This document shows, piece by piece, positions 2,977 through 63,099 of a DNA stretch of 64,000 bases; the stretch's first letter is position 1, and each line of letters opens with the position of its first letter. The stretch lies in contig NZ_QUNO01000009.1 in the NCBI RefSeq assembly GCF_003387475.1, positions 124,001 to 188,000 on the forward strand, read 5' to 3'. Source of the DNA: Kutzneria buriramensis (lineage in GTDB: Bacteria; Actinomycetota; Actinomycetes; Mycobacteriales; Pseudonocardiaceae). The notes below the pieces were generated by a model, which was not told the origin of the DNA, ran no database searches, and worked only from the letters and a program-made list of their open reading frames with translations. The position numbers were made by a program, and so were the translations under genes.

Positions 2977-2989
2977 GGGCAGGTTCCCT

Positions 2990-3370: not shown

Positions 3371-3383
3371 GCGGCGGACCGTA

Positions 3384-3520: not shown

Positions 3521-3529
3521 GGAGAAGCC

Positions 3530-5050
3530 GTGTCAGAGCACGCGTTCGCCGGGCTCCGCGTAGCCGACCCGCCCCCGCCATGGCATTCCACTGTGGACAC
3601 GGTCGCGGCCGAGCGCGGCGTCGACCTCGCCGACCACCTGGCCCGCTGCTCGGCCGAGCTGCACCTCGTGCACCACGAGCTCGACGAGTACCTCCAGTAC
3701 TGCCGGCGGGAACACCTGCTGGTGGCCGACGAACTGCTGTCCGACCTCGCGCACGCCGCCCTGGTCGCCGCGACCCGCGTGGACACCCAGGCCTGCCGCC
3801 TGGCGCACGCTCCCGGCCCGGACTGCCTCGCGCTGGCGGAATCCGTGCTGCGCTTCGGTTTGGCCACGCTGGCGTACACGCGGGGCGCGATGGAGTGGTG
3901 TTCGCCGTCCTACGCGCAGGCTCACGCAGTGCAGTTCTTCGCCATCCGGGCGCAGAACTCGCCCACCGTCAACTACGAGCGGTACGAGCACCACGCGCTG
4001 CACCGCGTCGAGTCGCAGCTGCTGGCCATGCTCGACCTCTCCCCCGACACGCACGCCGTGAGCGCCACCTCCTCCGGCGTCGCGGCGTACAGCCTGATCG
4101 AGTCTTTCCTCCTCCGGAAACGCCTGCGCCCCGGCGACATCGTGCTCACCGCGCCGTACCTGTACTTCGAGGCCGGCGAACAGCTCGGCACGCTGCCGTT
4201 CGTGCGGGTCAAGCAGTCGGACGACTACGACGTGGCCACCCTGCTGGCCGACGCCGAACGCCTCCAGCCGCGCTGTGTGTTCGTGGACCCGATCGCCAAC
4301 ACGGCTGCGCAGCGCATGGTCGACATTCCCGCGCTGCTAGCGGGATTGCGCGCGGTTGTGCGCGAGCGGACGACCGTCGTGATCGACGGCACCATGGTGT
4401 CGGCCGGGTTGCCGCCGGAGCTGCTGACCAGCGACGACCGCGTGGAAGTCCTGTACTACGAAAGCTGTTCCAAGTACGCCCAGCTGGGCCTGGATTCCGG
4501 CATGGCGGGCCTGGTGGCGTACCCGGTCGGGCTGCGCGACGCCTTCGCCCGGCAGCGCCGCAACACCGGCACGATCCTCTACCGGCACGGCACGGAGCTG
4601 TTCCCCCGATACCACCCGGCCAGCTACCGACGGCGAATGGCCCGCATCGCGGCCAATGCCCTGCGGATGGCCATGCTGCTGCACGCCGACCCCCGCGTGC
4701 GCGTAGCCGGCCGGGTGCACCACCCCTGCCTGCCGGGCCACCCGGACGCGACGGCGGCCGCAGGCCTGCGGCACACCGGCGGCTGCGTGACCTTCACGTG
4801 CCACGATCCGGCCCGCAACACGCGCGCCTCGTGGGACGAGCTGTTCCACCGGATTCTGACCCGTGCCGCGGCGGAAGGCGTGCACCTGACCAAGGGCCCC
4901 AGCTTCGGCTACGGCGCACCGCGGGTGTCCGCCGCCGACGCCTTCGACGGCGAGCCGCCGTTCCTCCGGCTCTACGTCGGGGATCGGGGCGAGCAGGTCG
5001 CCGCGCTGGCCGACATCATCGGCGCCGCGCTGGCGGAATCCTTTGAGTAA
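3530..5050 (+). CDS. PLP-dependent enzyme of the Cys/Met metabolism (cystathionine lyase/synthase-like) fold
   Basis: 506 aa. The C-terminal about 370 residues are fold-type I PLP enzyme: SATSSGVAAYSLIESFLL cofactor-phosphate region, VFVDPIAN, VVIDGTMVSAG with the PLP aspartate, and YYESCSKYAQLGLDSG with the Schiff-base lysine K315. This resembles the Cys/Met metabolism PLP signature and suggests beta/gamma elimination or replacement on an amino acid. The first about 130 residues are an extra alpha-helical domain not typical of cystathionine enzymes. GTG at 3530 is preceded by GGAG. The gene overlaps a possible TTG start of the exporter gene and heads a three-gene operon. Exact reaction unknown. 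Confidence 0.75.
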   Translation: MSEHAFAGLRVADPPPPWHSTVDTVAAERGVDLADHLARCSAELHLVHHELDEYLQYCRREHLLVADELLSDLAHAALVAATRVDTQACRLAHAPGPDCLALAESVLRFGLATLAYTRGAMEWCSPSYAQAHAVQFFAIRAQNSPTVNYERYEHHALHRVESQLLAMLDLSPDTHAVSATSSGVAAYSLIESFLLRKRLRPGDIVLTAPYLYFEAGEQLGTLPFVRVKQSDDYDVATLLADAERLQPRCVFVDPIANTAAQRMVDIPALLAGLRAVVRERTTVVIDGTMVSAGLPPELLTSDDRVEVLYYESCSKYAQLGLDSGMAGLVAYPVGLRDAFARQRRNTGTILYRHGTELFPRYHPASYRRRMARIAANALRMAMLLHADPRVRVAGRVHHPCLPGHPDATAAAGLRHTGGCVTFTCHDPARNTRASWDELFHRILTRAAAEGVHLTKGPSFGYGAPRVSAADAFDGEPPFLRLYVGDRGEQVAALADIIGAALAESFE

Positions 5051-5063
5051 GGAGCGATACCTG

Positions 5064-6026
5064 ATGTCCGACACCGCACGTGGCCTGCCGCCACTGCTGG
5101 CCTATGCGGTTCTGGCCGGCGCCGTCGACGTGTACGCGGGCGACTACGTGCAGGCGCTGTCCCCCGTCACCGTGGCGGCGATCTCTTTCACCATTGCCAC
5201 CCTCGGCGTCGGCGCGCTCACCGCGGCCCGGCACGGCATAGGCGAAGTGTTCCGTCTGATGTGGACGAACGCGTGGGACGTGCTGGCGCTGAACGTGCTG
5301 ACCGCGATCACGTGGCTGTCGCTGCTGTACTCCCTGAAGTACCTCGAACCGGCCGTGGCCAACGAGATCGCCTTTGCCCTCGGGCCGGCTTTGACCGCGC
5401 TGGCCGAACCGTTGCTGCGCCGGGGAAGCCGGACACTGCGCAGCGAACTCCTTGTCGCCCTGGGCATCCTGGGCCTGATCGGCATGCTGCTCTGGAGCTC
5501 GACCGCCGGCCTCAGCGGCCTCCAGCACACCGATCCCGGCCAGGCGCTGCTCGGCTTCGCGCTGGCCGTCGTGTGCGGGCTCGGCTGCGTCGGCAGCGTG
5601 ATCTACGCCAAGCGGCTCAGCGACGCCGGCGCGAGCGCCGCCGCCACGGTGACCGTCCGCTACGTGCTGTTGGCGGCGTTGTGCTGGGCGCTGGTCGGCG
5701 GCACCGGCACGGGCGCCACCGTCGGCCCGGCGCTGCTGCCGAGCGCGGTGATCGCCATCATCGGCGTCGCTCTGCCGGCATGGCTCGGCCAGGTCGGCAT
5801 CCGTTACGTGGAGCCGATAACCGTGGCGCTGCTGGACACCTTGTCGCCGGTGTTCGCGTTCCTGCTGCAACTGCCCGACAGCCGGCTGCACCCGTCCGCG
5901 CTGACGCTGATCGGGATCGTCGGTGTGACCGTGTTGGTGTGCCTCGGACTGCTGGCCCGGTGGCGGCACGAGCGCCGTCCCGTCCCGGTGCCGCCGCCGG
6001 CGGATCTTCTCCTGGAAAGGCTGTGA
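5064..6026 (+). CDS. EamA/DMT-family exporter
   Basis: 320 aa with ten hydrophobic segments arranged as two five-helix EamA repeats and a short basic tail. Drug/metabolite transporters of this family commonly export amino acids, small peptides and related metabolites. ATG at 5064 lies 11 bases after AAGGAG; the open frame extends to a TTG at 5043 inside the upstream gene. It lies between the PLP enzyme and the PurD-like ligase with almost no intergenic space, so it probably exports, or gives immunity to, the product made by these enzymes. Confidence 0.85.
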   Translation: MSDTARGLPPLLAYAVLAGAVDVYAGDYVQALSPVTVAAISFTIATLGVGALTAARHGIGEVFRLMWTNAWDVLALNVLTAITWLSLLYSLKYLEPAVANEIAFALGPALTALAEPLLRRGSRTLRSELLVALGILGLIGMLLWSSTAGLSGLQHTDPGQALLGFALAVVCGLGCVGSVIYAKRLSDAGASAAATVTVRYVLLAALCWALVGGTGTGATVGPALLPSAVIAIIGVALPAWLGQVGIRYVEPITVALLDTLSPVFAFLLQLPDSRLHPSALTLIGIVGVTVLVCLGLLARWRHERRPVPVPPPADLLLERL

Positions 6027-6027
6027 C

Positions 6028-7323
6028 ATGGACAACGTCATCGTCGTCGACTACAGCGGCCGCGGCCACGCCATCGCCGACCTGTTCGTGCGCACCGATC
6101 CCGGCGTCACCGTGCACTACCTGCCCGGCTGCGAGGCGATCAAGCAGGACCGCATCGTCAGCCAGCCGCAGCTGGCCTTCGACGACCCGGCGCCGATGGT
6201 CCAGTACGCCAGGGACGTCAGTGCCGACCTCGTGCTCGTCGGCCACCCGCGCGCGCTGGCCGCCGGCTACTCCGACCGCTTCCTGGAGGCCGGTTTCCCG
6301 GTGATCAGCCCGACCGAGCGCGCCGCGATGCTGGAGACCAGCAAGGACTACACCAAGCGGCTGTGCGCCAAGTACGGCATCAAGACCGCCGCCCACCGCA
6401 CGTTCGACGACGCCGACGAGGCCATCGACCACATCCGCGAGGTCGGCGCGCCCATCGTGATCAAGGGCGACACGTCGTGCCAGGGCAACGGGGTCTTCGT
6501 CTGCCACACCGTGCGGGACGCGGTCGCCGCCGTGGAGCGGCTCATGGTGAGCCGGGACTTCGGATCCGGCGGCGACCGCGTCGTCATCGAGGAATTCCTG
6601 GACGGCAAGGAGTTGCTGTACTTCGCGCTCGTCGGCGGCGACAACTACCTGCTGCTGCCCAGCGCCGTCGACTACCCGCGGTCCGAGGACGGCAACCAGG
6701 GCCCGATGTGCGGCGGCATGGGCGCGTTCTCCCCCGCCCCGTACGAGACCTACACCGACGTCAAGCGGTTCGAACGGCAGATGATGCGGCCGCTGATGAC
6801 CGCCATCGCCGGCGAGGGCCTCGACTACTTCGGCTTCATCTACCTGGACTGCATGCTGGTCGGGGACCAGCTGTACCTCATCGAGATCAACGCCCGGATG
6901 GGCGACCCCGAGGCCGAGGTGGTGCTGCCGCGCATCACCAGCGACTTCGGCGCCACCTGCACCGCCCTGCTCGACGGCCGGGTGCAGCCGCTGACCATCA
7001 GCGACGAGCACTTCGTCGACGTCGCCGCCACCCAGGGCCCGACCCCCGGCTACCAGGGCTGGCCGTACGGCACCGTCGGCCGCGGCTACCCCATCACCGG
7101 CCTCGACACCCTCACGCCCGAGACCTGCCGCGTCTTCTACGGCGCCGCCCGAACCCTGGCCGACGGCACCCTCGCCACCGACGGCGGCAAATGCCTGCAC
7201 TTCACCGGCCGCGGCGCCACCCGCGCCGAGGCGCGGGCCAACGCCTACCGCGGCATCGCCGGCGTGCACTTCGCCGGCATCCGGTACCGCACCGACATCG
7301 CCGAGGCAATGCCCTGGGACTGA
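6028..7323 (+). CDS. PurD-like (phosphoribosylamine-glycine ligase type) ATP-grasp enzyme
   Basis: 431 aa, close to the length of PurD. The PurD signature is recognisable as QGPMCGGMGAFSPAP, and the metal site as LYLIEINARMGDPEAEVVLPRI (about residues 286-307). The ATP-binding loop GDTSCQGNGVFV differs from the lysine-rich GKGV loop of housekeeping PurD. The gene starts one base after the exporter stop and has no purine neighbours. I infer a paralogue that makes an amide bond on a non-purine amine in the product of this locus. A secondary housekeeping role cannot be excluded without seeing the rest of the genome. Confidence 0.8.
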   Translation: MDNVIVVDYSGRGHAIADLFVRTDPGVTVHYLPGCEAIKQDRIVSQPQLAFDDPAPMVQYARDVSADLVLVGHPRALAAGYSDRFLEAGFPVISPTERAAMLETSKDYTKRLCAKYGIKTAAHRTFDDADEAIDHIREVGAPIVIKGDTSCQGNGVFVCHTVRDAVAAVERLMVSRDFGSGGDRVVIEEFLDGKELLYFALVGGDNYLLLPSAVDYPRSEDGNQGPMCGGMGAFSPAPYETYTDVKRFERQMMRPLMTAIAGEGLDYFGFIYLDCMLVGDQLYLIEINARMGDPEAEVVLPRITSDFGATCTALLDGRVQPLTISDEHFVDVAATQGPTPGYQGWPYGTVGRGYPITGLDTLTPETCRVFYGAARTLADGTLATDGGKCLHFTGRGATRAEARANAYRGIAGVHFAGIRYRTDIAEAMPWD

Positions 7324-7425
7324 CCTTTCGTGCACACCCTCCGTGACAGACCGGTGACGGACTGCCCCCAAAATCGTGGCATGCCGAGATATTCGGCAGC
7401 TATCGGTCAAGGATTGGGGGAAGGC

Positions 7426-7899
7426 ATGAAACGGGCGATTCGCGTGGTCGTCGCCGCGCTGGCGCTGCTGCTGGTCGGCGGCGCCGTCGCGGAGGCGGCG
7501 CCGGCGACGCCGCAGGCGGTGCGGCACTTCGCCAACGTGCGGTTCCAGAAGTGCCTGGACGCCGACACCAACGGCGGCGGCAACGGCACGAGGGTCCAGC
7601 TCTGGGACTGCGGTCCCTGGAACCAGCAGGACTGGGACGTGCGGCCGGACGGCTCGCTGTACAACATGCGGTTCCAGAAGTGCCTGGATGCTGACACCAA
7701 CGGCGGCGGCAACGGCACGGCGGTCCAGCTGTGGGACTGCGGACCGTGGAACCAGCAGTGGTGGGTGCTCCGCAGCGACGGATCCATCTACAACCAGCGG
7801 TTCCAGAAGTGCCTCGACGCCGACACCAACGGCGGCGGCAACGGCACGAGGGTCCAGCTCTGGGACTGCGGTCCCTGGAACCAGCAGTGGTGGCAGTAG
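7426..7899 (+). CDS. Secreted ricin-type beta-trefoil lectin protein
   Basis: 157 aa. A signal peptide (basic MKRAIR, then a hydrophobic stretch ending AEAAPA) is followed by three almost identical units of 43 residues, each carrying RFQKCLDADTNGGGNGT, VQLWDCGPWNQQ and a QxW-type end. Three such units make one complete beta-trefoil, a carbohydrate-binding fold. Each unit has a Cys pair (KCLD and WDC) that can form a disulphide. Start: ATG at 7426 follows GGGGGAAGG. No catalytic domain is attached, so it probably works as a free sugar-binding exoprotein. Confidence 0.88.
   Translation: MKRAIRVVVAALALLLVGGAVAEAAPATPQAVRHFANVRFQKCLDADTNGGGNGTRVQLWDCGPWNQQDWDVRPDGSLYNMRFQKCLDADTNGGGNGTAVQLWDCGPWNQQWWVLRSDGSIYNQRFQKCLDADTNGGGNGTRVQLWDCGPWNQQWWQ
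7540..7896 (+). repeat. Three direct repeats of 129 bp inside the lectin gene
   Basis: Copies begin at 7540, 7669 and 7798, exactly 129 bp apart, and the third stops at the gene end. Copies differ by few bases, mostly silent. The similarity at DNA level indicates recent duplication or ongoing gene conversion of the 43-residue lectin unit. Confidence 0.9.
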
Positions 7900-7902
7900 C
7901 CG

Positions 7903-8628
7903 TCAGGGCTTAGGGGCGTAGCCGAGCAGCGCCTTCATCATCGACACGTCCACACCGGCGCCGCGCAGGGCAGCGATGATCTGCGCGGCGCGCCGGGTCT
8001 CCTGCTCGTCGGCCCGCCGGTACTTCGACCCGCTGAGCTGGAACTGGACGGCCGGAATGTCGTTACGGCGCAAGCGCACGTTGGTGTCGTCGTACCAGGC
8101 CCAGCAGTCGGCGCGGTTGGCGGCGGCGTCGACCGCGCCGATCCAGACGTACCGGACCCGCTGCGGATCGTCGTCCACCCACAACGTGTTCGGCGTGGCC
8201 GCGTTGGGCGGCGCGGCCGGGGCCGGCGGCTCGGCGGCCGCGGCGCGCCGGGACATGCGCTGCGACCGCTGCGGCTCGGGCGCCTGTTCGCGGCGCGGCA
8301 TCCGCAGCGACGGCGTGCGCATCGCGCCGCTGGCCATCTCCGGCGGCGGGGCCGGCTGCCCGCCGACCAGATAGGTGTCGAGGTCGGCGGCGGTGCGCAG
8401 CAGCGTGTCGTAGTCGACCTGCGAGCCGGCGGCCTGGATCCGCATGACGACCGCGCGGGCGAGGTCCACCGACGGGTGCAGCCGGGCCGCGCGGTCGAGG
8501 CTGTCGACGTCGTTGGCGGCGACGTCCAGCGCCTCGGCCAGGCGGCGGAACTCGTCGGCCGCGCGGAGCACCGCCAGTTGCAGTGCTCGCCGGTACGAGT
8601 CCAGGTCGGCCCGGTTGTCGGCGGTCAT
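7903..8628 (-). CDS. Hypothetical actinobacterial protein
   Basis: 241 aa, not recognised. The N-terminal about 90 residues are helical (RALQLAVLRAADEFRRLAEALD), a Pro/Ala/Arg-rich linker follows (about 95-145), and the C-terminal part contains VRYVWIGAVDAAANRADCWAWYDD followed by a helical end. It looks soluble. Start at 8628 is chosen for the upstream AAGGAG; an upstream ATG at 8667 would add 13 residues. It lies just downstream of the NlpC/P60 gene on the same strand, so it may be part of that operon. Its stop faces the lectin gene stop, 3 bases away. Confidence 0.6.
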   Translation of the reverse strand: MTADNRADLDSYRRALQLAVLRAADEFRRLAEALDVAANDVDSLDRAARLHPSVDLARAVVMRIQAAGSQVDYDTLLRTAADLDTYLVGGQPAPPPEMASGAMRTPSLRMPRREQAPEPQRSQRMSRRAAAAEPPAPAAPPNAATPNTLWVDDDPQRVRYVWIGAVDAAANRADCWAWYDDTNVRLRRNDIPAVQFQLSGSKYRRADEQETRRAAQIIAALRGAGVDVSMMKALLGYAPKP

Positions 8629-8684
8629 TTGTGCACGAACTCCTTCCCACGCCTGGCCCCATTCCATCACAGGCCGGCGCGGGG

Positions 8685-9692
8685 TCAGTTCGTGACGAGC
8701 CGCCGGATGACCGTGATGGGGCCGATGGCGTCGATGGGGCTGATCTTGATCGGCTCGCCGAAGGTCGCCGCCTGCACGGCCTGGTTGTGGTCCACGGCCA
8801 TCGCGACGTGCTGGACCGGCTGGTAGAAGTAGATGAGGTCGCCGGCCTTCACATCGGCCCGCGAGACCTGCTGGCCGACCAGCGCCTGGTCCGCGGCGAC
8901 CCGCGGCAGCTCCACCCCGGCGGCGCGGTACGCCTGCTGCACCAGCCCCGAGCAGTCGTACGCGATCGGCCCGTTGCCGCCCCATTCGTACGGCTTGCCC
9001 AGCTGCGCGATGGCGAACCTCAGCGCCGCGCCGACCGTGCCCGGCGGCAGCATCACGTTCGGCGCGGTGGCGCCGCTCTGCATCAGGGAGACCTCGTCCG
9101 GCGGCAGCGCGTTCAGGGCCGCCCGCACCGCCGTCACCCGTTGGTCCAGGTCGGCTCGCTGCGCGCCGACCTTGTTCTCGATCGCCGTTGCCGCCGCGGC
9201 CGCCTTGGACGCTGCCGCCTGCTCCTTCTCGGCCGCCTCTCGCGCCTGGGACGTCTGGGCCAGCGTCTGCGCCGTGGCCGCCTTCACGGCGTCATCGGCG
9301 TCGTGCGCGAATCCGGCGACGATCGACGCCGTGTTGATGTCGTCGGCACTGGCGCTGGTCAGCAGTGCGGAGACGCTGTTGGCGGGTGCGATCGCCTTGA
9401 GCAGGTCGGCTCGCTGCTTGCGGTCGGCCACCAACTGGTCGGCCTGCCGCACCGCCTGCTGCCACTTCGCGTCCGCCGCCCTGAAGGCCGCGTCCGCCGT
9501 CGCCGCCTGCTGCCGTAACGACTGGGCCTGCTCCTGCGCCTTGAGCAGCTGCTCGTTGACCTTCTCGGCCTGGTGGCTCAGATCGATGTAGCGGCCGATC
9601 AGCCCGGCCACCGTCGTCGGCGCGTTGTCGGCGTACGCGACACCCGCCGGCAACATCACCGCCACCAACACCACAACGCCCAGCGCTCGCAT
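8685..9692 (-). CDS. Secreted NlpC/P60 peptidoglycan endopeptidase (RipA-like)
   Basis: 335 aa. A signal peptide ending AYA-DN is followed by an about 200-residue coiled coil (long Ala/Gln/Glu/Lys heptad-like stretch), then a C-terminal NlpC/P60 domain with YDCSGLV (catalytic C247) and HVAMAVDH (catalytic H295). This layout is typical of actinobacterial D,L-endopeptidases that cleave peptidoglycan stem peptides, where the coiled coil regulates access. A start at ATG 9692 fits the signal peptide. The following gene begins 17-56 bases downstream and may be cotranscribed. Confidence 0.9.
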   Translation of the reverse strand: MRALGVVVLVAVMLPAGVAYADNAPTTVAGLIGRYIDLSHQAEKVNEQLLKAQEQAQSLRQQAATADAAFRAADAKWQQAVRQADQLVADRKQRADLLKAIAPANSVSALLTSASADDINTASIVAGFAHDADDAVKAATAQTLAQTSQAREAAEKEQAAASKAAAAATAIENKVGAQRADLDQRVTAVRAALNALPPDEVSLMQSGATAPNVMLPPGTVGAALRFAIAQLGKPYEWGGNGPIAYDCSGLVQQAYRAAGVELPRVAADQALVGQQVSRADVKAGDLIYFYQPVQHVAMAVDHNQAVQAATFGEPIKISPIDAIGPITVIRRLVTN

Positions 9693-9806
9693 GGTCCCCC
9701 CGCCGCCGACAATCCTCCGGGTTCGACCCTAGCGAATTCCGGGGCGCGGGCGGAGGCCCGCGAACACGGACTCCGGGGCACCCCGGGCGGCCCCAATGGG
9801 CGGCCC

Positions 9807-9845
9807 GTGTCGGGCCGGCGGCGTTCCGGGCCGCCGGCCCGACAC
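9807..9845 (-). terminator. 16-bp hairpin after the aldehyde dehydrogenase gene
   Basis: 9807-9822 pairs perfectly with 9830-9845 around a 7-base loop. It lies 94 bases past the stop of the leftward aldehyde dehydrogenase gene and 115 bases before the leftward NlpC/P60 start, so it separates the two transcripts. The rest of the 246-base gap shows nothing else I can name. Confidence 0.7.
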
Positions 9846-9938
9846 CCCCTCCCCCAACTGTCGCCGGGACGGGGTCCCGACCGGACAACCCTCGCGCACC
9901 CCGTTCAGATCCGGATCAGACGGGGTTCGGACCGCTGG

Positions 9939-11252
9939 TCAGAGCGGCTTGTCCAGCACCGCCTTGAGGTGGCTGAACGTGTCGATGGAGTACTTCCCGT
10001 GGTAGCGGCCCATGCCGCTCTCCCCCACCCCTCCGAACGGCAGATCCGGCGCGGTCAGGTGCACCACTGGCAGACCGAAGCCGACGGCGCCGGACGACGT
10101 CTCGTCGAGGATGCGCCGCTTGGACTGGTCCGACTCGGTGAAGGCGTACAGCGCCAGCGGCTTGTCCCGGGCGGTGACGAAGGCGATGGCGGCGTCAAGG
10201 TCGGGCACGGCGATCACCGGCAGGATCGGCCCGAAGATCTCCTCGGCCATCACCGGCGCGTCCGGCTGGACGTCAGCAAGCACGGTGGGCGCGATGTACT
10301 TGGCGTCCCGGTCGGTCTGGCCGCCGGTCACCACCCGCCCGCCGGCGAGCAGCCCGCTGAGCCGGTCGAAGTGCCGGTGGTTGATGATCCGCCCGTACGC
10401 CGGGCTGTCGGCGGGGTCGTCGCCGAACTTGGCGTGCAGCGCCTCGGCCAGCAGCGGTTCGAGCTTCGCGGCGGTGTCGCCGACCGCGAGCACGTAGTCC
10501 GGCGCGACGCAGGTCTGGCCGGCGTTGAGGAACTTGCCGTTGACGATGCGCTCCGCGACGACGGCCAGGTCGACGTCCGAGTCGACGATCACAGGGCTCT
10601 TCCCGCCGAGTTCGAGCGTCACCGGCGTGAGGTGCTTGGCCGCGGCGGTCATCACGATCCGGCCGACGACCCCGTTGCCGGTGTAGAAGATGTGGTCGAA
10701 CCGCTGCTCCAGCAACGCGGTGGTCTCGGGGATCGCGCCCTCGACGACGGCGACGCCGTCCGGGTCGAGGTACCGCGGCACGAACCGGGCGATCGCGGCG
10801 GCCGTCTCCGGGGCCAGCTCGCTCGGCTTGAGCACGACGCCATTGCCGGCGGCGAGCGCCCCGACCAGCGGCGCGAGCACCAGTTGCAGCGGGTAGTTCC
10901 ACGGCCCGATGACCAGGACCAGCCCGAGCGGTTCCCGCACGACCGAGCCGCGCCCGGGCAGCAGCTTGTCCGGCAGCGGCGCGTCCTCCGGCGCGATCCA
11001 GGACTCCAGGTGCGCCAGGGTGTGGTCGACCTCGTTGCAGACGAAGTCGAGCTCGGTGCGCCGGGCCTCGGCCGCGTTCTTGCGGAGGTCGGCGTGCAGC
11101 GCGTCGAGGAACGCGCTTTCCTGCTCCCGCAACATGGTCCGCAGCGCGACGAGCTGCTCGCGCCGCCACGCCGACGGCTTGGTCCGGCCGTCACGGAACG
11201 CGGCGCGCAGCCGGTCGACGACGGCGGGGATCTCCGTGATCGGGTCGGTCAT
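9939..11252 (-). CDS. NAD(P)+-dependent aldehyde dehydrogenase (class 3-like)
   Basis: 437 aa, the shorter length typical of class 3/fatty-aldehyde-type enzymes. Key features: VIGPWNYPLQL, substrate/cofactor loop FYTGNGVVGR, the general-base glutamate in LELGGKSP and the nucleophile in NAGQTCVAPDY, plus the C-terminal PFGGVGESGMGRYHGKYS. It oxidises an aldehyde to the acid; the physiological substrate is not visible. It diverges from the PadR-P450 operon with a 58-base spacer that carries a CCTAAC/GTTAG imperfect dyad, so PadR may also control it. Confidence 0.92.
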   Translation of the reverse strand: MTDPITEIPAVVDRLRAAFRDGRTKPSAWRREQLVALRTMLREQESAFLDALHADLRKNAAEARRTELDFVCNEVDHTLAHLESWIAPEDAPLPDKLLPGRGSVVREPLGLVLVIGPWNYPLQLVLAPLVGALAAGNGVVLKPSELAPETAAAIARFVPRYLDPDGVAVVEGAIPETTALLEQRFDHIFYTGNGVVGRIVMTAAAKHLTPVTLELGGKSPVIVDSDVDLAVVAERIVNGKFLNAGQTCVAPDYVLAVGDTAAKLEPLLAEALHAKFGDDPADSPAYGRIINHRHFDRLSGLLAGGRVVTGGQTDRDAKYIAPTVLADVQPDAPVMAEEIFGPILPVIAVPDLDAAIAFVTARDKPLALYAFTESDQSKRRILDETSSGAVGFGLPVVHLTAPDLPFGGVGESGMGRYHGKYSIDTFSHLKAVLDKPL

Positions 11253-11310
11253 TCGCCGAGCCTAACTCACCTGTTCGGCCCACATCGGGCGACGGCCGCC
11301 ATAGGTTAGC

Positions 11311-11838
11311 GTGACATATGTGTGGGTGGAGATCGTGATGCTGGCCAACCTCGCCCGACAGCCGGCCCACGGCTACGAACTCCGCCACCGCGTCGAGCAG
11401 GACCTGGGGACGGCGCTGTCCAACAACTCCCTGTACCCGACGCTGCGGCGGTTCACCGAGGCCGGCGCGGTGACGCGTTCGGCGCAGCCGCAACGCGGCC
11501 GGCCGACCCGGCACGTGTACGAGATCACCCCGGTCGGCGTCGAGATGCTGCACGACATGCTGGCCGAGCTGCCCGACGAGCTGGCGTCCGACGACGCCGA
11601 GTTCATGGCCCGGCTGGCCCACTTCGACCGGCTCACCCCGGCCGAGCGGGCCGCGATCCTCGACGCCCGCTGCCGCGCGCTGCTGTGCCGTCGGGGCCGC
11701 CTCCAGGAGCTGCTCACCACGGTCGAGCCGGCGAGCTGGGCGCGGATCGTGCTGGACGAGGCACTGGCCCGCTCACACGCCGAGGAAAGGTGGATCGCCA
11801 CCCTGCGCTCCCGCGCCGCTTTACCACTGGAGGACTGA
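11311..11838 (+). CDS. PadR-family transcriptional regulator
   Basis: 175 aa. N-terminal winged helix-turn-helix of PadR type (MLANLARQPAHGYELRHRV, then NNSLYPTLRRFTEAGAV and RPTRHVYEITPVG), with a C-terminal helical dimerisation part. PadR proteins repress neighbouring genes in response to phenolic or other small ligands. The GTG at 11311 sits on GGTTAGC without a ribosome-binding site, suggesting a leaderless transcript. Its stop overlaps the P450 start by one base, so the regulator and the P450 are translated together. Confidence 0.88.
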   Translation: MTYVWVEIVMLANLARQPAHGYELRHRVEQDLGTALSNNSLYPTLRRFTEAGAVTRSAQPQRGRPTRHVYEITPVGVEMLHDMLAELPDELASDDAEFMARLAHFDRLTPAERAAILDARCRALLCRRGRLQELLTTVEPASWARIVLDEALARSHAEERWIATLRSRAALPLED

Positions 11839-53955: not shown

Positions 53956-54249
53956 ATGGACGAGGACCCGACGACCGCGGCCGGCCGCCGGCGCGGCACC
54001 GTGCTGTCGACCGTCGTCGAGCTCGCCGGTCTGGCCGCGTTCGTCGCGGCCGGCTGGCTGATCGCGCCATGGCTCGGGCTGGTCGTGGCCGGCTGTGCGC
54101 TGCTGCTGATCGGGCAGGCCCTCGACGGCGCGATCGTGCCGTCGCCGGCGGCCGTCTGGGCCCGGATCCCCTGGGCGACGCTGGGCGGCTGGCTGCGGCG
54201 TAAGCCGGCCGCGCCGGCAGCCGAGCCGGCTGGGGTGGCCACGTCGTGA
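53956..54249 (+). CDS. Small two-pass membrane protein
   Basis: 97 aa. Two adjacent hydrophobic helices (STVVELAGLAAFVAAGWLIA and LGLVVAGCALLLIGQAL) between a short acidic N terminus and a basic, Ala/Pro-rich end. Small membrane proteins are common just before the portal gene in actinophages; role unknown. Stop overlaps the portal start. Confidence 0.65.
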   Translation: MDEDPTTAAGRRRGTVLSTVVELAGLAAFVAAGWLIAPWLGLVVAGCALLLIGQALDGAIVPSPAAVWARIPWATLGGWLRRKPAAPAAEPAGVATS

Positions 54250-55526
54250 CGATCGTCCGCCGCGCGTTCTCCCGGCCGGCCGGCGAGCAGCGCGTCTACC
54301 TGCCCTCGGGCGCCGGCGACCCGTGGGCGATCCCGTCCAACGGCTCGCTGGCGGCCTACACCTCATCCGGGGTGCCGGTCACCGAGGACACCGCGATGCA
54401 GCTCGGCGCGGTGTGGGCGTGCGTCCGGATCCTGTCCACCGCGCTGGCCGGGCTGCCGCTGGACGCGGTACGGATGATGGACGTCGACGGCTACCAGATC
54501 CGCAAGACCATCGAGCCGCCCCCGATCATCGTTTCCGATCCGTTCGGCGGCGCGAACAACGTGCGATTCCCGAGTCGTCGCAAGGGGTTCGCGCAGATGA
54601 TGGTCAGCCTGTTGTTGCGTGGCAACGCCTACGCGCTGATCACCGCACGGGACTACCTGCTGCGGCCGGTCCGGATGCAGGTGCTGCACCCCGACCGGGT
54701 CGGTGTCGGCCTGGACGACGACGGCGGCAAGACCTTCAAGATCAACCGCCAGGATGTGCCGGCGGAGAACATGGTCCACCTGGTTGGCATGTGTATGCCC
54801 GAGTCGCCGGTGGGCATGTCGGTGATCACCGCGCTACGCGAGGCGATCGGGCTCGGCCTGGCCGCACAGGAGTTCGGCGCCAGGTTCTTCGGGCGCGGCA
54901 GCCACATGTCCGGCATCGTCGAGGTGCCCGGCGACCTGGACAACGACCGCGCGCGGCAGCTCAAGGAGCGCATGGAGAGCCGGCACGCCGGCCTGTCCAA
55001 CTCGCACACCCTGGGAATCCTCACCGGTGGCGCGACGTTCAAGCCAATCTCGATCAGCCCCGAGGACGCCCAGTTCCTCGGCACGCGGGCCGCGCAAAAC
55101 CTCGACATGGCCATGGTGTTCGGGGTGCCCCCGCACATGCTCGGCCAGGTCGACCGCACCACCAGCTGGGGCACCGGCATCGAGCAGCAGAGCCTGGGGT
55201 TCCTCAAGTACACGTTGTCCGACTGGGTGGGCGGGTTCGAGGACGCGTGGAGCGCGATGTTGCCGCGGCCGCAGGTGTCCAAGTTCAACCTGGACGCTCT
55301 ACTTCGGACGGACACTGCGGGCCGGTTCGCGGTGTACACGCAGGCCCGCAACATCGCCGCGCTGACCATCGACGAGATCCGCGCGAAGGAAGACATGCCG
55401 CCGTTGCCGGGTGGCAAGGGCGCCGACCCGTTCGCGCCGCTCAACTCGGCGCACACCGACACCCCCGCGGTCGACCCTGGGTCTGCGACCCCGAAGTCGG
55501 CGGCAGAGTCCGGAATGGAGCCGTGA
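54246..55526 (+). CDS. HK97-family portal protein
   Basis: 426 aa. Typical segments: AMQLGAVWACVRILSTALAG, LLLRGNAYALITARDYLLRP, SPVGMSVITALREAIGLGLA and FGVPPHMLGQVDRTTSWGTG followed by EQQSLGFLKYTL. It forms the dodecameric channel at the capsid vertex for DNA entry and exit. GTG start overlaps the preceding gene (GTGA) and its stop overlaps the protease start. The C-terminal 30 residues are Pro/Ala-rich. Confidence 0.95.
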   Translation: MTIVRRAFSRPAGEQRVYLPSGAGDPWAIPSNGSLAAYTSSGVPVTEDTAMQLGAVWACVRILSTALAGLPLDAVRMMDVDGYQIRKTIEPPPIIVSDPFGGANNVRFPSRRKGFAQMMVSLLLRGNAYALITARDYLLRPVRMQVLHPDRVGVGLDDDGGKTFKINRQDVPAENMVHLVGMCMPESPVGMSVITALREAIGLGLAAQEFGARFFGRGSHMSGIVEVPGDLDNDRARQLKERMESRHAGLSNSHTLGILTGGATFKPISISPEDAQFLGTRAAQNLDMAMVFGVPPHMLGQVDRTTSWGTGIEQQSLGFLKYTLSDWVGGFEDAWSAMLPRPQVSKFNLDALLRTDTAGRFAVYTQARNIAALTIDEIRAKEDMPPLPGGKGADPFAPLNSAHTDTPAVDPGSATPKSAAESGMEP

Positions 55527-56257
55527 TGACCACCGATCTGAGCCAGCGCGCGGAGACGCCGCGCGTCGTCGAGCGGCGGTCGATGCCGTTCCGGGGTGTC
55601 GAGCTCCGCGCCAAGCCCGACGGCACTGGCGGAGAGACGCTCGCGTTCACCGGCTACGCCTCGGTGACCGAGACCCCCTACGAGATGTACGACTGGCTGG
55701 GCCCGTTCACCGAGGTCATGCGCGCCGGCGCGTTCAAGAAGACGCTCAACGACGGCGCGGACGTCCCGTTCCTGATCAACCACGGCGGCACCACGCTGGC
55801 CCGCACCAAGTCCGGCACGCTGCGGCTGTCCGAGGACGACACCGGCCTGTACACCGAGGCCGACCTGGACCCGGCGTCGCCGCCGGTGCAGACGCTGCGC
55901 TCGGCGATGCAGCGCGGCGACATGGACGAGATGTCGTTCGCGTTCTGGATCGTCCGGTCGCAGTGGAGCCCGGACTTCGAGCAGCGTGACGTGCTGGAAG
56001 TGAACCTGAACAAGGGCGACGTCAGCGTCGTGAACTACGGCGCGAACCCGGCCACCGCCGGCGCCCATCTCAACGCCCGCGAGCTCGGCGCCCGCCTGGC
56101 CCAGCTCGACGAGCGCGACCGGCGCGAGGTCTACGAGCGCCTGGCCGCCGAGTTCGCGCCGGCGGCGGCCGCCGCCGAGGCCGAGGCCGCGCCGGCCGGC
56201 CGCGGGAACCTTGGCCTGTACCTCGCCCGCGCCCAGGCCATCGGTCTGGGCGCCTAG
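55526..56257 (+). CDS. HK97-family prohead protease
   Basis: 243 aa. The serine-protease core is clear: FTGYASVTETPYEMYDWLGP, the catalytic histidine in FLINHGGT (H86), and DMDEMSFAFWI with the catalytic serine S137, followed by DVSVVNYGANPATAGAHLNA. It trims the capsid protein's N-terminal scaffold during maturation. The C-terminal Ala/Glu-rich tail may serve as a packaging signal. ATG 55526 overlaps the portal stop (TGATG). Confidence 0.93.
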   Translation: MTTDLSQRAETPRVVERRSMPFRGVELRAKPDGTGGETLAFTGYASVTETPYEMYDWLGPFTEVMRAGAFKKTLNDGADVPFLINHGGTTLARTKSGTLRLSEDDTGLYTEADLDPASPPVQTLRSAMQRGDMDEMSFAFWIVRSQWSPDFEQRDVLEVNLNKGDVSVVNYGANPATAGAHLNARELGARLAQLDERDRREVYERLAAEFAPAAAAAEAEAAPAGRGNLGLYLARAQAIGLGA

Positions 56258-56302: not shown

Positions 56303-56468
56303 TATTTGGCCTGCCCGGCGGCCGCGCCGGAGCCGACGCCGGACCCCACGCCGGACCCGCTCCCTCGAGTTCATGGGGCGGGCACCACCTGGGGCACCAC
56401 CTCGGCCACCACCCGAACCCGCGTGCAGGCACACCGCGAGCAACCAATCCCAGAGAGGGGAGCCTGGA

Positions 56469-57848
56469 ATGTCCAGGACACTGGTCCAGACCCTCGTCGA
56501 GCGGCGTGCCGAGAAGCGAGGCAAGCTCGACGAACTACTGCGCACGCCGGTCGCCGAAGAGCGCGACCTCACCCAGCAGGAGCGCGAGACGTTCGACGCG
56601 ATCGCCGCGGAGATCGGCGAGATCGACGAGCGAGTCGCCGAGCTGTCCGACCTGGTCGTGCGCGACGAGCAGGCCGCCGAGGTGTCCCGCCGCGTGGTCG
56701 GCGGCACCCAGGTCATCCGCGAGCCCGAGGTCTACCGCAAGGGCCCGCACGGCCGCTCGTTCATCCGCGACATGTGGAACGCCCGCCAGAAGGGCGACCG
56801 TGACGCGCACGAGCGGTTGCAGCGCAACAACAAGATGCGCGCCGACGCGCTGGAGCGGCTGGCAGTCCAGGACGGGCAGCTGCCCGAGCAGCGCGCGATC
56901 TCCACCACCGGCGGCGCCGGCGGCGAGCTCGTTCCGCCGCTGTGGCTGGAGCAGGAGTTCATCAAGTTCGTCCGCCCGGGACGGATCACGGCGAACCTGT
57001 GCCACGCCTCCGAGCTGCCGATGGGCACCGACCAGATCAACATCCCGAAGATCCTGACCGGTACCGCGACCGCGCCGCAGGCCTCCCAGAACACCGGCGT
57101 GCAGCAGACCGACCTGACCACCGGTTCGGTGTCCAGCCCGGTCGTCACGATCGCCGGCGGCCAGGTGGTGGCGCTTCAGCTGATCGAGCAGTCACCGCTG
57201 AACATCGACGAGATCGTTCTGAGTGATCTCGCCGCGGATTACGCGAAGCAGTTGAACACGCAGGTGATCTCCGGTTCGGGCACCGGCGGCACCATGACCG
57301 GGATCCTGACCCTGTCGGGCACCCAGTCGGTGGCCTGGACGCAGGCCACGCCGGCGCTGGGCGGCGCCGGCGGCCTGTACTCGAAGCTGGGCAACGGGAT
57401 CCAGCTCATTCACACCTCGCGGTTCCTGCCGCCGACGGCGATCCTGATGCACCCGCGCCGGTGGGCCTGGGCCGAGACGCAGTCCGACAGCCAGGGCCGG
57501 CCGCTGGTCGTGCCGCTCGCCGGCGGACCGCTCAATGTGCTGGCCAACCTCGACGAGCAGGTCTCCCAGGGCCTGGTCGGGTCGATGCTGGGTCTGCCGG
57601 TCTACGTCGACCCGCTGCTGCCGGTCAACCTGGGCGCGGGCACCAACCAGGACGAGATCGTGGCCGCCAAGATGGACGACCTGTGGCTGTGGGAGGGCCA
57701 AATCAAGGCCGAGGCGTTCGCCCAGACCTACGCGCAGAACATGAGCGTGTTCGTGCGGCTGTACAACTACGCGTCGTTCCAGCCGGGCCGCTACCCGCAG
57801 AGCATCGCCAGCATCACCGGCACCGGCGCGGTCACCCCCGTGTTCTGA
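56469..57848 (+). CDS. HK97-family major capsid protein
   Basis: 459 aa. An N-terminal coiled-coil delta domain (residues 1-115, LVERRAEKRGKLDELLRTPV, EIGEIDERVAELSDLVV) is followed, from ISTTGGAGGELVPPLWLEQE, by the HK97 capsid fold with P- and A-domain patterns (VALQLIEQSPLNIDEIVLSD, PPTAILMHPRRWAWAET, AQTYAQNMSVFVRLYNYASF). The delta domain serves as an internal scaffold removed by the protease. ATG 56469 follows GAGAGGGGA. Confidence 0.95.
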   Translation: MSRTLVQTLVERRAEKRGKLDELLRTPVAEERDLTQQERETFDAIAAEIGEIDERVAELSDLVVRDEQAAEVSRRVVGGTQVIREPEVYRKGPHGRSFIRDMWNARQKGDRDAHERLQRNNKMRADALERLAVQDGQLPEQRAISTTGGAGGELVPPLWLEQEFIKFVRPGRITANLCHASELPMGTDQINIPKILTGTATAPQASQNTGVQQTDLTTGSVSSPVVTIAGGQVVALQLIEQSPLNIDEIVLSDLAADYAKQLNTQVISGSGTGGTMTGILTLSGTQSVAWTQATPALGGAGGLYSKLGNGIQLIHTSRFLPPTAILMHPRRWAWAETQSDSQGRPLVVPLAGGPLNVLANLDEQVSQGLVGSMLGLPVYVDPLLPVNLGAGTNQDEIVAAKMDDLWLWEGQIKAEAFAQTYAQNMSVFVRLYNYASFQPGRYPQSIASITGTGAVTPVF

Positions 57849-57924
57849 CCACCCCCCACCGTCCGGCGGCCCGTCTGCGGGGTCGGGCCGCCGGACCCCC
57901 TTACCTGGCAAGGAGAGTCAGCAC

Positions 57925-58266
57925 ATGGCCGCAACCATCGTCGCCTCGGCGGCACGCACCGTCACCGGCGCCTCGGGCGCGATCCCGATCGGATCCGGCC
58001 CGTCGACCGTCGAGCTGGAGCTGGAAGTCACCGCGGCGTCGGGCACCTCCCCGACGCTGGTACTGGGCGTCCAGTGGTCCGACGACGGCGTGAACTTCGG
58101 CAACAACGACGGCAGCGCGGACGCGTTCGCCTCCGTCAACGCGGTCGGCAACGTCGTCAAGAACGTGCCGGTCCGCGCCCCCTACATGCAGATCACCTGG
58201 ACGATCGGCGGCACCAGCCCCTCGTTCACCTTCGCGGTGCTCGACGCCACGTCGAACGCCATCTGA
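57925..58266 (+). CDS. Small beta-rich head protein (possible decoration protein)
   Basis: 113 aa directly after the capsid gene with AAGGAG upstream. Beta-rich, Ser/Thr/Gly-rich (SGPSTVELELEVTAASGTSP, MQITWTIGGTSPSFTFAVLD), no cysteine. Position and composition suggest a head decoration or minor head protein; homology is not established. Confidence 0.7.
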   Translation: MAATIVASAARTVTGASGAIPIGSGPSTVELELEVTAASGTSPTLVLGVQWSDDGVNFGNNDGSADAFASVNAVGNVVKNVPVRAPYMQITWTIGGTSPSFTFAVLDATSNAI

Positions 58267-58284
58267 CCAGGAAGGACAGTCGAC

Positions 58285-58635
58285 ATGCGACTGGAGAACT
58301 ACGCCGCCGGTCTCGTCGAGGAGCTGGCCGGCTACGAGCGGGCGGGCATGAAGGACCGCGCCAAGGACGTCCGGGCCGAGCTGGACCGGATCTCCCCGGA
58401 CCTGCCTCGCGCGCTGGCGGTCGCCGAGACCGACTTCGTCTCGGGCATCAAGCTGTACGACGTCAAGGACCCGGAGCAGGTCCGGGCGGTGTTCGAGGCC
58501 CAGCCGGAGGTGCAGCGGCTGCGCCGGCTCGAGAACGACCTGACCGACCTCGGCTACTACGGCGCGAGCCGCAAGCGCACCACCCGGGCACCGGGCGCGC
58601 CCGAGACGGTCGTCCCGCCGGCGCCGGTGGCCTGA
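58285..58635 (+). CDS. Small helical late protein
   Basis: 116 aa. N-terminal helices (VEELAGYERAGMKDRAKDVR), then FVSGIKLYDVKDPEQVRAVF and a basic/Pro-rich tail. AGGAAGGAC precedes the ATG. Not recognised; sits where head-tail joining accessory proteins are usually encoded. Confidence 0.65.
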   Translation: MRLENYAAGLVEELAGYERAGMKDRAKDVRAELDRISPDLPRALAVAETDFVSGIKLYDVKDPEQVRAVFEAQPEVQRLRRLENDLTDLGYYGASRKRTTRAPGAPETVVPPAPVA

Positions 58636-58639
58636 CGCG

Positions 58640-59194
58640 GTGGCCGGCGCAGCAGTCACCACCGACAACCCGCTGCGCCGGCACCTGCGGCATGTGCGTA
58701 GCCAACACCAGGCCCACTGGCACGTCACCACCCGCCGGCACATCGCCGGCGGCCGCCGGTCCGGGCACCACGGCGGCCACTCGCACCACCACGCCCACGG
58801 CCGCCACAGCCACGCCCACCACCACGCACGGGCCGGCCAGGTCACCCACGCCCGGCACGTGCGGCACGCCGCCAAGGGCAACCACCTGCGCCGCCAGCAG
58901 CACGTGCGGCACGTGTCCCACCACACCGGACACCGCACCGCTGCCCGCGCCGGCCACCGCACCCACCGGCCCGGGGTGCACCACCATCACGTCGGCTCGC
59001 ACAAGCCCCGCCGCAAGGGCCTGCACCGGCCCTTGACCCACCGCCGGCGACACGTCGCCGGCCACCGCGTCGTGCACCGCCGGCACGGTCTGCACCACCC
59101 GCACAAGGGCGTCAAGGGCCACCACAAGCGCATCGGCGCGACGCACCGCGCCCACCACACCGGCCGCCGGCGCGCACGCCGCTACGGCCACTAG
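58640..59194 (+). CDS. Histidine/arginine-rich phage protein
   Basis: 184 aa, of which about 49 are His and most of the remainder Arg, Ala, Gly and Thr, with clusters HHGGHSHHHAH, HSHAHHHARAG and VHHHHVGSH. There is no hydrophobic core or known fold. The frame starts 4 bases after the previous stop and ends 18 bases before the next start, so it fills the slot exactly, which supports real coding. Nucleic-acid or metal binding is likely from composition. Nothing comparable is standard at this place in HK97-type phages. Confidence 0.65.
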   Translation: MAGAAVTTDNPLRRHLRHVRSQHQAHWHVTTRRHIAGGRRSGHHGGHSHHHAHGRHSHAHHHARAGQVTHARHVRHAAKGNHLRRQQHVRHVSHHTGHRTAARAGHRTHRPGVHHHHVGSHKPRRKGLHRPLTHRRRHVAGHRVVHRRHGLHHPHKGVKGHHKRIGATHRAHHTGRRRARRYGH

Positions 59195-59212
59195 AACCGG
59201 CAAGGGGGCGAC

Positions 59213-60088
59213 GTGGCGTACATCTTCTTCCAGGGGCAGGACGTGCCGCTGGCCGCGAGCGTGGTCAACGACTCCGGCACGCCGGCGAATGCCACCACCG
59301 TGACGCTGACGGTGACCAATCCGGACGGCACCACCCAGACGCCGGCGGTCAGCAACCAGGGCACCGGCTCGTACACCGCGGTGGTGCCGGCCGTGGCGCA
59401 GACCGGCGTCTACCTCTATCGGTGGACCGCGACCGGGTCGGGGTTCTCCTGGGCCAGCGAGGGCCAGTTCCAGACGCGCGCCTCGGCGATCGAACTGATG
59501 GTCGACCTGCCCTCGGTCAAGGCGCACCTGAACATGCCGCTGAACGACACCAGCCAGGACGACGAGCTGCAGGGGTTCATCCTCGCGGCCGAGCCGATCG
59601 TCGAGGACCTCGTCGGCACCGTGATGCCCAAGACCTATGTCGAGTACTTCAACGGCGCGAGCGAAACCGTGGTGCTCTCACATCAGCCGGTCATCTCGAT
59701 CCAGTCTGTGTACGAGTACTACGGCCTGTCCGCGTTCCTGCTCACCGAGCAACCCTTGGGCGCGCAGATGAACGCGTTCGCGTTCACGGTGGACTACACC
59801 ACCGGGCAGCTGCTGCGCAGAACGTTCGGCGGCCAGGCCGCGCGGTTCGCGATCGGCGACAAAAACATCAAGGTGTCCTACACCGCCGGCCTGACCACCG
59901 TGGCGTACAACATCCGGCTGGGCACGCTGGAACTGCTCCGCCACTGGTGGCAGCTCACCCAGCAGGGACGCCGGCCTACCCGCGGCGGCGGCGACGGCGG
60001 CGACGGACACGTGCCGACCGGGTTCGCCGTCCCCGACCGGGTGGTCGAGCTGCTGCAGCCGCAACGCCGGCCGCCGGGGGTGGCCTGA
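59213..60088 (+). CDS. Head-tail connector (adaptor) protein with N-terminal Ig-like domain
   Basis: 291 aa. Residues 1-90 form an Ig-like beta-sandwich (VPLAASVVNDSGTPANATTV, GSYTAVVPAVAQTGVYLYRW). From about 95 the helical gp6-type connector begins (LPSVKAHLNMPLNDTSQDDE, LQGFILAAEPIVEDL) and ends with YTAGLTTVAYNIRLGTLELL RHWW. Connectors sit under the portal. The fusion to an Ig domain is unusual, as Ig domains are normally on capsid or tail surfaces. GTG 59213 has AGGGGG upstream. Confidence 0.8.
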   Translation: MAYIFFQGQDVPLAASVVNDSGTPANATTVTLTVTNPDGTTQTPAVSNQGTGSYTAVVPAVAQTGVYLYRWTATGSGFSWASEGQFQTRASAIELMVDLPSVKAHLNMPLNDTSQDDELQGFILAAEPIVEDLVGTVMPKTYVEYFNGASETVVLSHQPVISIQSVYEYYGLSAFLLTEQPLGAQMNAFAFTVDYTTGQLLRRTFGGQAARFAIGDKNIKVSYTAGLTTVAYNIRLGTLELLRHWWQLTQQGRRPTRGGGDGGDGHVPTGFAVPDRVVELLQPQRRPPGVA

Positions 60089-60540
60089 TGCCGGTGATCC
60101 CGCCCAGCAGCGTCAAGGCCGTCCGGCCGGCGCTGTTCACCCAGCTGCAGACCACCATCACCGGCACGGACCTGTTGGTGTCACTGGGAAAACCGGGCAC
60201 CTACAACCCGTCGGACATCGTGTGGGTCGGCAACGCCCACCGCACGACCAAGCCCAGCCACATGGTCGGCTCGGGCGGCGCCGGCTGGCTCGACGAGTCC
60301 TACCAGATCCAGGTGACCGTCGAGGTGTTCCGCGGCGGCGACGAGGAACTGGTCGTGTGGAACCGCACCTGCGACCTGGTCGACGCGGTCGAGGCCGCCG
60401 TGCGTACCGATCCGTCGATCGGCGGGCTGGTGCTGTGGTCCTACCCGCAACAGGCCTCGTACGACTCCGACTGGGAGCCCGAGGGCAAAGGCCGCCTCGC
60501 GGTGGCCGAGCTGCTCATCCACTTCGAGGCGATCCAGTAA
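60088..60540 (+). CDS. Head-tail joining / tail terminator-like protein
   Basis: 150 aa. The layout, a helix at the start (PSSVKAVRPALFTQLQTTIT), VWVGNAHRTTKPSHM in the middle and RGGDEELVVWNRTCDLVDAV and EGKGRLAVAELLIHFEAIQ at the end, fits tail-terminator/neck proteins of siphophages. ATG 60088 overlaps the connector stop. Assignment is by position and shape. Confidence 0.65.
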   Translation: MPVIPPSSVKAVRPALFTQLQTTITGTDLLVSLGKPGTYNPSDIVWVGNAHRTTKPSHMVGSGGAGWLDESYQIQVTVEVFRGGDEELVVWNRTCDLVDAVEAAVRTDPSIGGLVLWSYPQQASYDSDWEPEGKGRLAVAELLIHFEAIQ

Positions 60541-62437: not shown

Positions 62438-62878
62438 GTGAGCAAGACCACTGTGGACCTGGGCAAGCACGGCACGGCGACGTTGCGCGACCCGGAGGAC
62501 GTGCCGGAGAAGCTGCGCCGGCGCGTGCAGCGAGCCAACCTCGCCTCGCAGATCTTCGTCGAGGAGCTCCGCACACGCGGCGACATCCCCGCCGACATCG
62601 ATCTGTCCGACGTCGACGAGCAGACGACCCGCACCATCGGGCGGATCGTCATGACCGAGCACCCCGAGTACATGGAGCAGCAGCAGGATGCGGTCATCCT
62701 GGCGCTGGTCGAGGACTGGCCGTTCGAGTACCCCAAGACCGCCGAGGGCCTGGCGGAGATCCCCGGGACGGCCTACGACAAGCTGCTGGCCGCGTGCAAG
62801 GCCCTGGAGCCGCTGCTGAGCCCCAACCTCACGGCGCCGACGCCGCCGGAGGCGGGGAACACCCCTTTCGACAGCTGA
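62438..62878 (+). CDS. Tail assembly chaperone, upstream (G-type) frame
   Basis: 146 aa, acidic and helical (KLRRRVQRANLASQIFVEEL, DAVILALVEDWPFEYPKTAE). Its position between tail tube and tape measure, and the downstream overlapping frame, identify it as the tail assembly chaperone, which coats the tape measure protein during tail assembly. GTG 62438 follows AAGGAATAA. A CCCTTTC slippery heptamer lies three codons before the stop. Confidence 0.85.
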   Translation: MSKTTVDLGKHGTATLRDPEDVPEKLRRRVQRANLASQIFVEELRTRGDIPADIDLSDVDEQTTRTIGRIVMTEHPEYMEQQQDAVILALVEDWPFEYPKTAEGLAEIPGTAYDKLLAACKALEPLLSPNLTAPTPPEAGNTPFDS

Positions 62879-63099
62879 GCCGGCTCCGGCTGCACCTGAT
62901 CGAGGGTCGTTCGTATCCGGAGTGCCTGCTGCCCATGGAGCCCTGGCGGATCTATCGGCTGTGCCGGATGTTCGGCCGGTTCCCGCGGCCGGGCAGCCTC
63001 GATGACCAACCGGCGGGGCTCAACGACTGGCTGCTGGCCATCGACGACATCTACCGCGAGCTGGACGCGCGCCGGGAACGGGCGCGCTATCCGGCCTGA
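62438..63099 (+). CDS. Tail assembly chaperone, -1 frameshift product (G-T type)
   Basis: Predicted 220-aa fusion: the first 144 codons are read in the G frame, then ribosomes slip back one base at 62863-62869 and continue to 63099. The added 76 residues begin RQLSRLRLHLIEGRSYPECL and include MEPWRIYRLCRMFGRFPRPG. The downstream frame has no start of its own that matches its conserved content, which is helical and Arg-rich, so expression by frameshift is the natural explanation and is the rule in siphophages. Confidence 0.8.
62863..62869 (+). promoter_or_regulatory. -1 ribosomal frameshift slippery site CCCTTTC
   Basis: In the G frame the bases read C CCT TTC, an exact X-XXY-YYZ heptamer. 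Both tRNAs can re-pair after a one-base slip (CCT to CCC, TTC to TTT). The G-frame stop is at 62876-62878 and the -1 frame stays open to 63099. Confidence 0.8.

Follow-up and report, generated by a model that had tools for sequence, protein, structure and literature searches.

A histidine-rich polycationic protein encoded directly upstream of the head-tail connector in a Kutzneria buriramensis prophage and in related loci

The DNA analysed here, referred to as the window, is a stretch of 64,000 nucleotides from Kutzneria buriramensis (RefSeq assembly GCF_003387475.1, contig NZ_QUNO01000009.1, positions 124,001 to 188,000 of the forward strand). It carries a prophage of a 12.0-Mb host genome, and the same prophage is present in IMG/VR as a 34.6-kb record. 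Besides an integrase gene (38656), genes for a small and a large terminase and a tail tube, the prophage contains a tape measure gene that extends beyond the end of the window. The head operon on the forward strand begins with the portal protein (54246–55526; Pfam PF04860, 1.2e-74), a prohead serine protease of the S78 type (55523–56257; PF04586, 2.6e-29) and a major capsid protein of the HK97 type (56373–57848; PF05065, 3.6e-18; phrog_2263, 5.5e-55), the true start of which may lie downstream of the first ATG. These are followed by a 113-aa protein (57925–58266; weak match to phrog_9522, 8.1e-5), a 116-aa protein with a basic, alanine-rich end (58285–58635; weak match to phrog_6852, 0.0056), the histidine-rich open reading frame (ORF) that is the subject of this work (58640–59194), and a head-tail connector (59213–60088; phrog_442, 5.2e-20), which served as the anchor for finding relatives. 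Farther along, after the tail tube gene, two overlapping frames (62438–62878 and 62794–63099, within 62438–63099) resemble the customary frameshifted pair of genes for tail assembly chaperones.

The histidine-rich ORF, characterized by translation, shuffles, dN/dS and alignment, starts with GTG at 58640, stops with TAG at 59194 and is open throughout. The TGA of the 116-aa gene at 58635 lies 4 nt before this GTG and the connector gene starts 18 nt past the stop, so that an earlier note on this DNA had correctly placed the ORF in the space between two genes of the head operon. Neither a sigma-70-like promoter nor a terminator-like site was detected in 57850–59300, the sigma-70 consensus being the only promoter model scanned; given this result and the gaps of 4 and 18 nt, production of the protein together with the structural proteins is suggested. 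The predicted product of 184 residues comprises 49 His, 35 Arg, 21 Gly, 19 Ala, 14 Val, 11 Thr, 6 each of Leu, Ser and Lys, 5 each of Pro and Gln, 2 each of Asn and Ile, and a single Asp, Trp and Tyr, with no Cys or Glu. It therefore contains 26.6% His, in agreement with the 27% given in the earlier note, and 22.3% Arg plus Lys. The same note had expected the charge to switch with pH, which is borne out by computation: assuming a histidine pKa of 6.0, the net charge rises from about +42 at pH 7.4 to +64 at pH 6 and +85 at pH 5. Two segments stand out in the alignment of relatives described below, namely a conserved N-terminal block, LRRHLRHVRSQHQAHWHV (codons 12–29; 58673–58726, forward strand), and the C-terminal residues 176–184, RRRARRYGH (59165–59191, forward strand).

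The histidine content lies far above what shuffled DNA yields. Dinucleotide-preserving shuffles of the same 552 bases gave 19.6 ± 3.4 in-frame histidines with a maximum of 31 (n = 2000), versus the 49 observed; moreover, CAC and CAT codons number 49, 2 and 11 over the three phases of the ORF, and the densest 150-residue stretch holds 45 histidines in this frame versus 27 in the other five frames across the whole window. The open frame on its own is weak evidence for coding, because an in-frame stop was absent from 1423 of the 2000 shuffles and because an antisense frame (58463–59527) is likewise open in the window, as it is in one close relative (L004; loci are cited here by L-number). An antisense gene was rejected, since this frame carries 2, 1, 1 and 2 stops in L002, L012, L013 and L020, respectively.

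The assignment of the ORF as coding rests instead on comparison with close relatives, which were found on three other viral contigs (L002, L003 and L004, of which L002 and L003 encode an identical histidine-rich protein). In-frame dN/dS is 0.284 for the window and L002, 0.370 for the window and L004, and 0.258 for L002 and L004, and the five other frames give 0.46–4.6 in these three pairs, above the histidine-rich frame in each pair. A second set of relatives behaves in the same way, with 0.450 in frame versus 0.82–1.73 in the other frames for L012 and L013; the values are 0.51 for L012 and L020 and 0.44 for L013 and L020, each the lowest among the six frames. The frame stays intact even though L002 exceeds the window's protein by 8 codons and L004 by 14. 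Among the window, L002 and L004, the neighbouring genes give 0.15–0.24 for the connector and 0.45–0.61 for the 116-aa protein, with the histidine-rich gene in between. Comparisons of the window group with L012, L013 and L020 gave dN/dS of 0.60–1.10, and another frame was lower in 5 of the 9 comparisons; we read these values as saturation and uncertain alignment, which makes them uninformative on coding. On this codon-level evidence, the ORF is protein-coding. The earlier note's expectation that it is probably translated is thus supported by the values of 0.26–0.37 in the three close pairs, and the frameshifts or missing codon constraint that it had named as evidence to the contrary were not found in the close relatives, the distant comparisons being saturated. 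As an observation apart, the first 16 codons (58640–58687) show no nucleotide difference between the window, L002 and L004, with many synonymous changes in the rest of the gene, which perhaps reflects a constraint on translation start or recombination.

Base composition was also considered as the origin of the frame. Among the 15 histidine-rich members of the family alignment, the share of histidine is independent of GC3 (r = 0.09), and the share of CAT codons reaches 39% in members of low GC3; what has been kept is therefore histidine itself and not the base composition, this residue being maintained from GC3 0.69 to 0.98 through synonymous codon changes. An untranslated open frame in C-rich DNA would fit the high G+C content that keeps frames open, as in the shuffles and the antisense strand, and it would fit the distant codon comparisons in which no constraint is visible. 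Nevertheless, the codon constraint found within each set of close relatives, the stops of the antisense frame in four loci, the retention of histidine across GC3 and the recurrence of the ORF in the same slot all speak against such an artefact, which was rejected on dN/dS, shuffles and GC3 independence and is regarded as extremely improbable.

The recurrence of the ORF was followed by connector-anchored scans of viral contigs and species genomes, together with a search of one genome family with a histidine-rich profile. As a result, 89 connector-bearing loci were collected, of which 73 are distinct. Of these loci, 21 have a histidine-rich ORF immediately ahead of the connector, namely 16 loci of an 84-locus scan, L021 (identical to L020) and L054–L057, and a shorter version of low histidine content occupies the same slot in four more (L095, L108, L110 and L114). 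In the 84-locus scan, 20 loci had first given candidates; L067, L070, L074 and L019 were removed because their ORF lay 203–893 nt before the connector and contained acidic residues, as was the second ORF found in L020. The 73 distinct rows thus divide into 17 with a histidine-rich gene, 4 with a low-histidine gene and 52 that have neither; in L098 and L116 the sequence starts only at the connector and the slot is not assessable, which leaves 50 absences among 71 assessable distinct rows. One connector clade of 41 rows (40 assessable) has the gene in none. L020 and L021 (positions 1–10879) represent a side observation, in that a prophage identical across 10,879 bases occurs in two Kitasatospora isolates listed as separate species.

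In the family of the Kitasatospora isolate, 6 of 394 genomes matched the histidine-rich profile, including two already known. Single matches, in each case the window itself, came from 394 genomes of the window's class, 297 of its family and 396 of its phylum; these absences are soft, as the scans scored just 8–11 candidates in most genomes. As a control, the profile recovered 4 of 4 known members and nothing in L019, where the slot lacks the gene, a control that is not independent because its members or identical copies sat in the profile alignment. Among 297 genomes of the window's family, 18 gave matches to the window connector, only two of them strong, and a scan of these 18 connector-matched loci for a histidine-rich ORF yielded no further member. 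A pattern made from the core motif matched 11 viral stretches, four of which are known members (L130, L131, L132 and L138) and seven of which were judged unrelated by composition; in L033/L042, a 425-codon frame with 16 histidines in 60 residues lies on the strand opposite to the match and was taken as out of frame.

The family alignment comprises 19 members, the near-copies or repeats L003, L021, L059, L102 and L105 and the truncated L107 having been left out. All 19 lie directly upstream of a connector of the phrog_442 type, which is also how members were found, except for those from the profile search of the Kitasatospora isolate's family. The connector match starts 13–37 nt past the ORF stop in 16 loci and at an equivalent place in L054–L057 and the four low-histidine members; these distances are taken from the connector match, as the first start codon with 200 open codons may be out of frame (for L012, 11 versus 18). 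Every aligned member has no Cys, 0–2 acidic residues and 20.8–36.1% Arg plus Lys. A core resembling HRHTLRxHR is common to part of the family, and the C-terminal end is RRYR in 13 of the 19 and RRYGH in three, including the window, with other ends in L058, L071 and L112. Histidine ranges from 9.3 to 40.1%, with 15 members at 21–40% and four at 9–13%, and is highest in L013 (81 of 202 residues). The four low-histidine members are still basic and still end in RRYR. In the connector tree, which was rooted at the midpoint for drawing only, they fall within a part that also holds histidine-rich members: L095 and L108 are sister to L102 and L105, and L110 and L114 stand beside L113, which lacks the gene, and L097. 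We infer from these placements that histidine was reduced at least twice with basicity kept, the opposite direction being possible too. As far as the alignment indicates, strong basicity, not histidine, is the constant trait, and the ORFs appear to form one undescribed family of small polycationic proteins encoded just upstream of the head-tail connector.

These compositions bear directly on the proposal that the protein, carried in the phage or supplied to the lysogen, binds or stores metal (Ni, Zn or Cu). The 21–40% His of 15 aligned members, with many histidines adjacent to one another, would suit this role, and metal binding by the histidine clusters is chemically likely. However, the family has no cysteine, its 21–36% Arg plus Lys is unneeded for metal binding, and no NCBIfam metal-protein model was matched by five members. 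Furthermore, since the members with 9–13% His in the same slot keep their basicity instead, a core function in metal storage becomes less likely, and altogether a metal protein is considered improbable.

The genes around the histidine-rich ORF vary independently of it. Relatives of the 113-aa and 116-aa proteins were not found in L020, L057, L097 and L103, and the histidine-rich gene is still there; the 113-aa gene itself is single in some relatives and doubled in others, for example in L014 (3896–4621) and L058 (2041–2770), where two diverged copies stand in tandem. In L058, an additional ORF (1231–1965) between the capsid and 113-aa genes has a sequence resembling that of an HNH-type homing endonuclease. 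The slot may also be filled differently: a relative of the window's phage, L011 (4382–4951), has a different, non-basic 189-aa protein before the connector, prophiGD43A-5 has a 114-aa protein of another kind, and Mycobacterium phage Minerva (L143), with a capsid 38.6% identical, has genes annotated as glycosyltransferases, kinase and methyltransferase. In Minerva (8936–11364), the RefSeq product names of genes 18–21 (glycosyltransferase, galactosyl transferase, zinc-finger protease and UDP-glucose dehydrogenase) clash with the record's own notes (head-to-tail connector).

As the enzyme-annotated genes of Minerva show, proteins other than virion components can be encoded in this slot. The product could then be a binder of nucleic acids that works inside the cell and stays unpackaged, for instance by coating phage DNA or RNA, by aiding packaging or by disturbing the host nucleoid late in infection. 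The polycationic composition would suit this role equally well, and the gene is dispensable across the lineage; on the other hand, its position between capsid and connector, the short intergenic gaps and the lack of a promoter-like site of its own suggest that the protein is made with the structural proteins. On balance, an unpackaged binder seems unlikely.

Structure prediction points to a protein that is largely disordered. The AlphaFold2 model of the window protein, based on the 19-row alignment, has a mean pLDDT of 52 and a single helix at residues 11–29, which covers the conserved N-terminal block. The model of the low-histidine L108 reaches a pLDDT of 74 with helices at residues 4–20 and 42–103, so that a helical instead of a disordered structure is possible for some members. 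An amphipathic N-terminal anchor is unsupported, as the best hydrophobic moment was matched by 16 to 235 of 500 shuffles among 15 members, L013 being the best. Another possible role is that of an adhesive on the head surface or at the connector, in which a displayed polycation would attach to soil particles, metals or cell-envelope polyanions. The position after the capsid gene is a common one for decoration proteins, and the histidine clusters and positive charge would suit such binding; nonetheless, no fold, signal or attachment domain was predicted or matched, and proteases would presumably attack a basic, disordered chain exposed on the exterior of the head, which makes an adhesive quite unlikely.

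Database searches returned no families from Pfam and NCBIfam for five members, the filters of which may penalize biased composition, and none from PHROGs for six (window, L004, L012, L013, L020 and L095); a PDB profile search gave no match to the family, and the family named here is absent from the profile libraries searched. The remark of the earlier note that it knew of no standard HK97-type gene of this kind at this place accords with the lack of a PHROGs or Pfam head-family match. L013, L103 and L108 had no match among 50,697 phage records with the low-complexity filter on, nor was there a phage match for the DNA of 58285–60540 or for the connectors of the window and L020; against plasmids, the L020 connector gave two weak matches of 33% and 29% identity. 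The negatives for the family are weakened by the masking or penalizing of biased composition in the search programs. Among the matches listed from the open-licence literature, no description of such a protein was found: "histidine-rich" refers there to T4 gp17 and gp37 and not to such a family (PMC9958956, PMC6832132), and the word histidine is absent from the main text of PMC11302927 (Samy prophage) and PMC10023795. Small basic phage proteins are already known; this family itself appears to be undescribed.

Taken together, the explanation favoured here, to which a probability of about 0.48 is assigned, is that of a real, translated late prophage gene for an accessory, largely disordered polycation that accompanies the head and attaches to DNA by electrostatic forces, its histidines tuning this binding by pH or metal. 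Expressed in the lytic cycle, the polycation would be synthesized alongside the capsid and connector proteins and would associate with the head, most plausibly meeting the DNA during head filling or staying with it in the virion. The putative DNA binding would be electrostatic, by analogy with protamine or a T4 internal protein, and the histidines would strengthen it at low pH or with divalent metal; metal binding is unlikely to be the core role in view of the low-histidine members. Several observations count against this explanation, namely the absence of the gene from 50 of 71 connector rows, the low-histidine members, which show histidine to be dispensable, the slot shared with enzyme-annotated genes in Minerva, the lower dN/dS of another frame in 5 of the 9 distant comparisons, and an N-terminal amphipathicity not clearly above shuffles. 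So does the available part of PMC3281028, according to which evidence is lacking for any large contribution of basic proteins to the neutralization of phage dsDNA.

A bolder version, in which the family would be the first protamine-like head protein of a tailed phage with a grip on DNA switched by pH or metal, packaged with the genome, which it would hold in place inside the virion, and loosened or carried along at cell entry, is regarded as doubtful. If true, such a head polycation would break with the view that phage DNA is hardly neutralized by basic proteins, and a His/Arg-rich protein nearly devoid of acidic residues, its gene lying between those for capsid and connector in prophages from several hosts, offers a direct test of that view as given in the available part of PMC3281028. 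At the same time, the family offers natural polycations with up to 40% His whose viral role is measurable.

Among known systems, the window protein resembles the nickel-binding Hpn and Hpn-like proteins of Helicobacter in its small size and extreme histidine content; as far as the available portions of PMC8704837 and PMC4671568 describe them, those are cellular metal proteins, whereas the window protein is strongly rich in Arg and Lys, lacks an NCBIfam match and is encoded in a phage head operon. A functional comparison may be drawn with baculovirus P6.9, a very basic, small, protamine-like core protein that condenses viral DNA according to the accessible text of PMC6669607 and PMC5899202; proteins of this type are described there as Arg-rich and belong to insect viruses, whereas the present family combines its Arg and Lys with much histidine, and its DNA binding is putative. 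The T4 internal proteins IPI–IPIII are also comparable, by description and composition rather than by sequence, in that they are small basic head proteins, which the available part of PMC9026906 reports at about 300 copies each per head, as DNA-binding at low salt, as targeted by a cleaved propeptide, and with the roles of two still open. The family described here differs from them in its 9–40% His and its near lack of acidic residues, and a prohead protease gene is present in the window prophage.
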